Below are positions 6,666 to 9,497 of a stretch of 64,000 nt of DNA, piece by piece (position 1 is the first letter of the stretch; each line of letters begins with the position of its first letter). The notes beneath the pieces were generated by a model that saw only the letters and a list, made by a program, of their open reading frames with translations, was not told the DNA's origin and did not search any database. Position numbers and translations under genes: made by a program. This DNA is from Nitrososphaerales archaeon (GTDB taxonomy: Archaea; Thermoproteota; Nitrososphaeria; Nitrososphaerales; Gagatemarchaeaceae). The stretch spans positions 1 to 64,000 of the forward strand of contig JACWAI010000015.1 in assembly GCA_014874415.1 (NCBI GenBank), given 5' to 3'.

Positions 6666-9497
6666 ATGTCGAAGACAGATTCTGTCAGGTTGTACAAGGT
6701 AAGGAAGCTCATCTCAGAGCTGGGCACCAAGGAAGGGAGGGGTACCGAGCTCGTCTCCCTGTACATACCTCCCAAGAAGGCCATCCACGAGGCGATTGCC
6801 AACCTTCGGGAGGAGTGGGGAACGGCCGGGAACATAAAATCTGACACCACCAGGAACCACGTCCAGGACGCCCTCACCAAGACGATGCAGAGGCTCAAGC
6901 TGTACAGGACGGCCCCCGACACGGGACTGGTGATTTTCGCCGGGGCCCTGCCGACGAACGGGCCAGGAAGCGAAGTGGTGAACGTATACGAGATCGTTCC
7001 ACCGAAACCTGTGACTCAGTACCTCTATCAGTGCGACAATCACTGGCACGTCGAATGGCTCAGGGACATGCTGAGGGAGGAGAAGGTCTTCGGGTTGCTT
7101 TCCATCGATTCTAGCGATGTCGGAATGGGGATCCTGACCGGGGACAGGCTCGAGATCGTAGACGTGCTGACATCGGGCATATCCGGAAAAACTCGCAAAG
7201 GAGGACAGTGCGTAAGCGCCGACACCCTAGTGCAACTCGAAGATGGCAGATTGGTTCCCATATCTCGGGTCGCGCCGAGAAGCAGAATCGCAAGCTACAA
7301 CTTTGTCAACTATTCTCATGGACTGTACGAATGCACCGACACTTTCGTCCGCATCCCGAAGGATTACTGCGTCGTAGAAACGACCAGGCCCAAACTCAGG
7401 ATTTCAGCCACCGGCGAGCACAGGTTCTTCACCATTTCGCCCTCGGGAGAAGCCTCCACCATACAAGCTTCCGACATCCATCCCGGTGACAAGGTGCTCA
7501 TCTCCCGCAGGATGCGGGAACCCGCTGTCCCATCGTTCTCCACCATGTTCCATGCGACCTACAGGTACTTGGTGACTCCTGAGGGAAGGGCCCTCCTGAA
7601 GAAAATCAGGACAGAGAGAAGGATTTCGCAGAAGAAAGCCGCCAAGGCTGCTAGCCTCCATCAGACCGAGGTCTCTCAGTTGGAGAGAGGGGAAAGAGAC
7701 CTGAGAGTGGAAAAGCTCAGGGCTGTCGTCCAATGCTTGTACGGCGACTTCGATGAATTCACGACCAGGTACGTGAAAGTCACTAGGTCTCTCCCGGAAT
7801 ATTTCTCCCCCGACCTGCTTCAACTGATGGGATACATCGCGGGAGATGCCAACGCAGACGTTAACCGCCTCAACCTCTATGAAGAAAGGAGAGAGGTAGC
7901 CGAAGCGTATGCGCACCTGGCAAAGTCGGCTTTGAATCTAGAATACGTCCCGATAAAGAAGGTCAGCCCTGAGAAGCGCAAGAATTCATTCGCAAAGAAA
8001 CCGTATCTTGAGACATGGATATATTGTAAAGAGTTCGTCGATGCGTTGAAGGAGCTCTATCCTGGGCTCGTATCGACGGGACCAAGGGAGATTCCAGAGC
8101 AGATACACCGCCTGGATAACGCCCACCTTGCCAGATTCCTGAGAGGGCTCTTCGATGCCGAAGCCAATGCCCGCAGGGGAAGGAGAATATCAATCGCGAT
8201 GAAACCTGGTCTTCTGATTCGGCAGCTGCAGCTGCTCCTGCTCAGATTTGGCATTGTTTCATCCTATGATACGTATGTGAACAGGTATGGCACGTTGATG
8301 CACAGGCTCGACATAAGCGACTATGATTCATTGGTGGCGTTCCGTAACAGCATTGGTTTCACGGCAGCCGACAAGGCTAGACGGCTTGAGAAAGGAATCG
8401 GGGGACGACGGCCCCAGAGCTACCATACCGTTCCAGTAGTGGGTTCATGGGTGGACAAGACCGCCAAGGAACTCGGAATCAGGAGGAGGCAGTTCGAAGG
8501 AATCACGAACTTTTTCCATGATCAGAGAGGGATCAGCGACCGGATCTTTGAGAGGGTCATCGGCACTTTTCAAGGAGTACTTGCTGATGAACGGGTCACC
8601 TCGAACCCTTCCAACGAGAGGGTTCAGCTGCTGGAAGAGACGGTGACCAAGCTGAAGCAGATACAGCAGAGCGAGCTCATCTTGGTGACAGTGAAAAAGA
8701 CCCGGCGCGTAAGAAATTCCAGAAAGGAAAAGTTCGTCGATCTCGAGCTCCCGTCAACCCGAAGCTTCGTAGGAGGAGGGTTCGTCCTTCACAACAGTGC
8801 CAGGCGATATGAGCGCGGTAGGGAGATGGAGCTGACCTACTACTTCCACAGGGTCGGGGAGCACGCGACGCGGGTCTTCATCGACAGCAACAAGGTGACC
8901 GGGATGATAGTCGGGGGGCCGGGACCGACCAAGGACGAATTCCTGAAGGGCGGCTACCTGCACTACGAGCTGCAGAAGAAGGTCCTCGCCGTCCTGGACT
9001 TGGGCTATTCAGGAAGGGAAGGGGTGAGAGAGCTCGTCGAAAAGGCGGGGGACATATTGAAGGATGTCCGCCTGGTGGAGGAAAAGCGCCTGGTCCAGAA
9101 GTTCCTTGGGGAGGTCAACAGGCAGGGCGGGCTCGCGGTCTACGGGCTCCCCAGGGTCATCGAAGCGCTCGGGAAGGCGAGCACCGACGTGGTCCTTGTT
9201 TCGGACGACCTGGACATGGTCCGCATCGACGCCGACTGCAAGAAATGCGGGACTGTGAAGTCTGATACGGTCGCTGCCTCGAAGAAGATCCAGGAGCGGC
9301 AGGAGATGACGTCCACCCCATGCGCCAAGTGCGGAGCGACCGACTACGACGTGGTGGAGAGAGATCTGGTGGACGTGCTCGAGGAGATGGCCTTCCAGGT
9401 CGGCTCGAAGGTCGAGGTGATATCTTCCGGGACTGAGGAGGGGAACATGTTCAAGAGCTTCGGCGGTGTCGGGGCGATCCTCAGATACAGAGCCTAG
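6666..9497 (+). CDS. prf1: Peptide chain release factor aRF1 interrupted by an intein
   Basis: The frame is 943 residues, of which 529 are an intein. The exteins (residues 1-181 and 711-943) join into a 414-residue aRF1 of normal length. Domain 1 holds the stop-codon motifs GNIKS (about 55-59) and YQCDNHW (121-127). The GGQ peptidyl-hydrolysis motif is at 179-181, immediately before the intein, and the second extein resumes SARRYERGREM. A C-terminal zinc-type pair, CKKCG and CAKCG, sits in domain 3. aRF1 recognises all three stop codons and releases the nascent chain, so splicing must occur to make a working factor. It is divergent from pyrH and starts at ATG 6666. Confidence 0.95.
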   Translation: MSKTDSVRLYKVRKLISELGTKEGRGTELVSLYIPPKKAIHEAIANLREEWGTAGNIKSDTTRNHVQDALTKTMQRLKLYRTAPDTGLVIFAGALPTNGPGSEVVNVYEIVPPKPVTQYLYQCDNHWHVEWLRDMLREEKVFGLLSIDSSDVGMGILTGDRLEIVDVLTSGISGKTRKGGQCVSADTLVQLEDGRLVPISRVAPRSRIASYNFVNYSHGLYECTDTFVRIPKDYCVVETTRPKLRISATGEHRFFTISPSGEASTIQASDIHPGDKVLISRRMREPAVPSFSTMFHATYRYLVTPEGRALLKKIRTERRISQKKAAKAASLHQTEVSQLERGERDLRVEKLRAVVQCLYGDFDEFTTRYVKVTRSLPEYFSPDLLQLMGYIAGDANADVNRLNLYEERREVAEAYAHLAKSALNLEYVPIKKVSPEKRKNSFAKKPYLETWIYCKEFVDALKELYPGLVSTGPREIPEQIHRLDNAHLARFLRGLFDAEANARRGRRISIAMKPGLLIRQLQLLLLRFGIVSSYDTYVNRYGTLMHRLDISDYDSLVAFRNSIGFTAADKARRLEKGIGGRRPQSYHTVPVVGSWVDKTAKELGIRRRQFEGITNFFHDQRGISDRIFERVIGTFQGVLADERVTSNPSNERVQLLEETVTKLKQIQQSELILVTVKKTRRVRNSRKEKFVDLELPSTRSFVGGGFVLHNSARRYERGREMELTYYFHRVGEHATRVFIDSNKVTGMIVGGPGPTKDEFLKGGYLHYELQKKVLAVLDLGYSGREGVRELVEKAGDILKDVRLVEEKRLVQKFLGEVNRQGGLAVYGLPRVIEALGKASTDVVLVSDDLDMVRIDADCKKCGTVKSDTVAASKKIQERQEMTSTPCAKCGATDYDVVERDLVDVLEEMAFQVGSKVEVISSGTEEGNMFKSFGGVGAILRYRA
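7209..8795 (+). other. Intein with LAGLIDADG endonuclease inside aRF1
   Basis: The intein begins CVSADTLVQLEDGRLVPI (Cys1, block A) directly after KGGQ. It contains SATGEHRFFT (block B, TxxH-like) and ends FVGGGFVLHN before Ser711. Cys1, a final His-Asn and a Ser +1 residue are the standard splicing residues. Two dodecapeptide motifs, LMGYIAGDA (about residue 387) and LRGLFDAEA (about 492), mark a LAGLIDADG homing endonuclease; both keep an acidic residue at the catalytic place (D and E). Between block B and the first motif is a helix-turn-helix of XRE type (about residues 315-345, KKAAKAASLHQTEVSQLERG). All elements look intact, so both splicing and homing may be active. Confidence 0.93.

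Follow-up and report, generated by a model that had tools for sequence, protein, structure and literature searches.

The window analysed here is a stretch of 64,000 nucleotides from a Nitrososphaerales archaeon, a soil or groundwater organism known from a 1.69 Mb MAG (G000) that is 91.6% complete. On its forward strand, positions 6666-9497 form a single stop-free open reading frame of 943 residues. The NCBIfam model for class-1 release factors of the aRF1/eRF1 type (TIGR03676, aRF1_eRF1) matches this precursor in two pieces (423 bits against a cut-off of 234.7; E 8e-127), and Pfam places eRF1_1 at residues 13-136 (E 2.7e-18), eRF1_2 at 710-800, and eRF1_3 at 804-942. All the features of a class-1 release factor are there: the three eRF1 domains, GNIKS, YQCDNHW, and GGQ. 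An earlier sequence-only reading had located an intein directly after the GGQ motif, from Cys182 to residue 710, with Ser711 next; these coordinates and residue numbers proved exact. Homology to aRF1 does not continue across residues 182-710: the alignment to the solved aRF1 4af1 ends just past GGQ and picks up again at SARR, and homology is confined to precursor residues 1-181 and 711-943, with the break exactly between GGQ181 and Ser711.

The N-extein (6666..7208, forward strand; aRF1 residues 1-181) ends with GGQ and holds domain 1, with the NIKS and YxCxxxF-type motifs, and the start of domain 2, as delimited by eRF1_1, TIGR03676, and alignment to 4af1 and yeast eRF1. The C-extein (8796..9497, forward strand; residues 182-414 of the spliced protein, plus the TAG stop codon) starts with SARRYERGREME and is covered by eRF1_2, eRF1_3, and TIGR03676 positions 174-402. 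Once the intein is removed from the precursor sequence, GGQ adjoins SARR, and the sum of the exteins agrees with the 414-residue product that had been predicted. A search of the 91.6% complete G000 for a second aRF1 gene returned just this aRF1 and a Pelota-like match. Two aRF1-like genes are carried by some other Nitrososphaerales (G741, G743, and G744, of the JOPF053 family). In the YxCxxxF motif of the window gene (YQCDNHW, 7026-7046) Trp replaces Phe, where the other genes compared have Phe or Tyr.

By its sequence, the insert (7209..8795, forward strand; 529 residues, Cys1-Asn529, corresponding to precursor Cys182-Asn710) belongs to the class-1 cis-splicing inteins and carries both a LAGLIDADG homing endonuclease and a helix-turn-helix (HTH) accessory domain, in the order Hint-N, HTH, endonuclease, Hint-C. 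It was delimited with a six-copy alignment and Intein_splicing (PF14890), the match to which is partial and scores 38.1 bits against a cut-off of 35.8; Intein_splicing, LAGLIDADG_3, and HTH_3 were each detected in all six complete copies of this intein. The following parts all lie on the forward strand. The Hint-N splicing region (7209..7562) contains block A with Cys1 and block B with T68-x-x-H71, as seen in the alignment and in profile matches to solved inteins; residues 49-107 of the family profile, spanning block B, match the TFIIB, CDC21, and PI-PkoII inteins. The HTH_3 domain, of the XRE/Cro-C1-like type (7596..7739; intein residues 130-177; E 2e-8), was absent from the first description of the insertion and was found here; profile residues 126-179 match the controller protein C.BclI (E 4.5e-10). 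The first LAGLIDADG motif, LLQLMGYIAGDAN (7815..7853), was placed by alignment and profile match and holds the catalytic Asp213, and the solved VMA intein of T. litoralis (7qsu) aligns with profile residues 192-244 (E 0.001). The LAGLIDADG_3 half (8127..8357; PF14528, E 2.2e-16) carries motif 2, FLRGLFDAEA, with the catalytic Glu318, and profile residues 271-402 match PI-PfuI 1dq3 (E 1.5e-9). The C-terminal splicing region (8676..8795; block F/G alignment) ends in FVLHN. AlphaFold models of the intein and of the precursor had pLDDT values of 48 and 40, too poor for fold searches, and the HTH was the only well-predicted part of the intein model (pLDDT 74-90).

The splicing residues had been described as intact, and C1, T68, H71, D511, H528, N529, and the +1 Ser are indeed invariant in the six complete copies aligned. 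The same description of the two LAGLIDADG motifs holds for the catalytic acids D213 and E318 and fails for the residue that follows each of them, which is Ala in the window copy (GDA, DAEA) and Gly in most relatives; D213 itself is conserved across the copies, except in JOPF053, where it is replaced by His. The block-F His is absent from all copies, which have TRSF, TSSF, or TGSF instead, and the GlmS inteins of the same archaea have ENF at this position. A block-F His is common among inteins, yet not universal, and is hence no defining trait. Because both this His and the Gly residues after the acids are missing, splicing of the window intein may be slow, or its endonuclease weak.

A search of aRF1 genes within this archaeal phylum, along the lines that the sequence-only reading had proposed, revealed the same intein at the identical base in six other Nitrososphaeria MAGs of at least four genera, making seven genomes in total. 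The carriers, named as Thaumarchaeota or Nitrososphaerales, are REEA66, NC_groundwater_720, TA_8, TA_13, TA_14, and JOPF053. Identity to the window intein is 73% in G331, 62% in G342, 58% in both G311 and G404, and 51% in JOPF053, while the copy in G375 consists of two contig halves. As JOPF053 belongs to a different family from the window genome, the element spans distant families. Its distribution is patchy at short range: within the genus of the window genome, two genomes are occupied, versus 14 with a full-length uninterrupted aRF1, and in a tree of mature aRF1 the empty G399 is the supported sister (97/91) of the occupied G331. Outside Nitrososphaeria, no aRF1 inteins were seen in a 398-genome sample of the phylum; the low-scoring cases examined there were truncations, frame breaks, or one diverged full-length gene. 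The closest relatives outside aRF1 are inteins of GlmS (up to 100 bits over profile positions 1-395). Viral relatives were found neither in IMG/VR by pattern scan nor in a phage collection by tblastn, and a viral origin was rejected.

Inteins also occupy a second site in aRF1, directly 5' of the Cys in the stop-codon-decoding YxCxxxF motif (YLYx^CDDH), in eight genomes: G311 (507 residues), G375 (239 residues), G404 and G370 (both partial), G043, G049, G055 (503 residues), and G743. The loci of these YxC inteins are L071:4444-5964(-), L073:4392-5108(+), L074, L075, L076, L077, L092, and L136. In G743, one aRF1-like copy has the intein and none is present in the matched part of the other. The YxC inteins begin with Cys, end with HN, are followed by Cys at +1, and give no HTH_3 match; the endonuclease has been deleted from those of G375 and G404. 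Three genomes (G311, G375, and G404) carry inteins at both sites, and the double-intein precursor frame of G311 is the longest, at 1456 residues. The nearest relatives of the YxC intein are the inteins of two ORFs on contig C76 of G000, which look like RNA polymerase subunits. Since the nearest relatives of the two elements differ (GlmS inteins for one, RNA-polymerase-like inteins for the other), the GGQ and YxC inteins most likely have separate origins.

Several lines of evidence bear on mobility. For six taxa, the topology of the intein tree matches that of the extein tree, a result compatible with either descent plus losses or exchange between close relatives. In most pairs dN is higher for the intein than for the extein; the G000-G331 pair, for example, has 0.17 and 0.10, respectively, with dS above 1. 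The aRF1 tail of G404 goes out of frame near its end, and extein numbers for this genome were left out. For the endonuclease alone, G311 and G404 are the only pair with a clearly unsaturated dS (dN 0.014, dS 0.060); between G000 and G331 dN is 0.16 with dS saturated, and other pairs have dN of 0.16-0.46 with dS saturated and not estimable. No accelerated change of the endonuclease was seen on the window branch (22 changes in G000 versus 26 in G331). The codon of the +1 Ser is AGY in six of six occupied genes versus six of 25 empty ones (hypergeometric probability about 0.001, ignoring relatedness), and in G331 it is AGC versus TCG in its three closest empty relatives; this bias hints at a short co-conversion or a constraint on the target site. 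Just the first few codons near the insertion are suggestive of co-conversion, and no long co-converted tract is visible, codon identity over 12 codons near the site not being clearly raised. Taken together, the intact, mutated, and deleted endonucleases of the aRF1 inteins fit a homing cycle. The patchy distribution and the conserved endonuclease speak indirectly for the suggestion that this may be an active homing intein; the element is probably mobile, and its essential host gene is single-copy in G000.

We therefore regard the class-1 intein that interrupts the catalytic loop of this single-copy aRF1 as very probably a mobile parasite exploiting a conserved site rather than a dedicated switch. 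From known intein chemistry, Cys182 would attack at Gln181, the N-extein would be transferred to Ser711, and Asn710 would then cyclise, releasing an aRF1 of 414 residues, its GGQ-SARR loop intact, and a free 529-residue endonuclease. The GGQ motif acts in the peptidyl-transferase centre during peptide release. Because of this function, a precursor with 529 residues beside Gln181, which would be unable to put GGQ into that centre, should not release peptides, and termination would need splicing. Such dependence of the cell would keep the splicing domain functional and make loss of the element hard, while the free endonuclease would recognise the GGQ-SARR coding sequence of empty alleles, into which the intein would be copied by homing. 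Besides the GGQ intein, G000 harbours about ten others (loci L126-L135), in MCM, PolB, TopoVI-A, RadA, SufB, aconitase, the beta subunit of 2-oxoacid:ferredoxin oxidoreductase, an AmmeMemoRadiSam radical SAM enzyme, and the RNA-polymerase-like ORFs. This number, together with the known tendency of inteins to insert at catalytic motifs, makes selfish insertion the default reading.

The absence of the block-F His and the draft state of the MAGs might suggest a broken, non-splicing pseudogene or an assembly error; the same junction in six other MAGs, however, largely refutes a chance or chimeric frame, and with the splicing residues invariant, dN below dS where estimable, and this aRF1 gene the only one found in G000, such an origin is hardly credible. 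An intein that is fixed and no longer mobile, passed down from an ancestor of these families by vertical descent with repeated losses, would account for the agreement of the two trees, the faster change of the intein than of the exteins, and the loss of the catalytic Asp in JOPF053. It would, however, require many precise losses inside one genus, and without recurrent homing one would hardly expect the other copies to retain the whole endonuclease with both acids, so that we consider this history unlikely.

The sequence-only reading had splicing control termination itself, a claim that goes beyond dependence on splicing. If splicing were conditional, the intein could act as a post-translational switch through which temperature, redox, or translation state sets the level of active aRF1, and the unspliced form, with domain 1 intact, might even occupy stop codons as a dominant-negative. 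GGQ is the one place where an unspliced aRF1 could bind stop codons without hydrolysis, two independent intein families lie at the two functional centres of the protein, and other inteins are reported to splice conditionally (review PMC5874633). Most close relatives nonetheless lack the intein, and inteins commonly insert at catalytic motifs, as with the VMA-b and MCM-a inteins in P-loops (PMC8966425, PMC10643990), so that the position needs no regulatory reason; a switch of this kind is very unlikely. A broader proposal, that some Nitrososphaeria gate termination by splicing, with two independent inteins at the decoding and catalytic centres, splicing rate setting active aRF1, and the unspliced precursor serving as a stop-codon-occupying inhibitor, is likewise highly improbable. 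The mobile-parasite interpretation accordingly remains the one we prefer.

A library of 5.39 million open-access papers yielded no account of an intein inside a class-1 release factor (aRF1, eRF1, GGQ), in line with the earlier suggestion that the GGQ insertion may not be a described site; both the GGQ and the YxC sites are apparently undescribed, while the kind of element is ordinary. A translation-termination factor thus joins the known intein hosts, apparently for the first time, and both insertion sites fall among the defining residues of class-1 release factors, those for stop-codon reading and for peptide release. In a cell whose sole release factor has to splice before it can terminate any protein, that factor included, one can ask directly whether intein splicing limits a core process, and the double-intein precursors are a chance to test how neighbouring inteins fold and splice.

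Among known inteins, the T. litoralis VMA-b intein and PI-TkoII share with the GGQ intein the Hint domain, the LAGLIDADG endonuclease, and an HTH accessory domain, and VMA-b, too, interrupts an essential gene at a catalytic motif (PMC8966425). They differ in host gene and site, and the HTH of the GGQ intein is clearly of the HTH_3/C.BclI type; its placing between Hint-N and the endonuclease is known here for the GGQ intein alone. The best profile relatives, the inteins in glucosamine-6-phosphate synthase (GlmS) of G331, G199, and G405 (loci L115, L116, and L117), come from the same archaeal genus and family, but have another host gene and site, and their similarity is far below that among GGQ copies. 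The YxC inteins share the host protein and also lie in an essential motif, but at a different site, and are unrelated. Like the doubly occupied aRF1 of G311, G375, and G404, the essential gene in the system of PMC10643990 holds two inteins; homing has been shown experimentally for that system, whereas the aRF1 pair is known from sequence alone.
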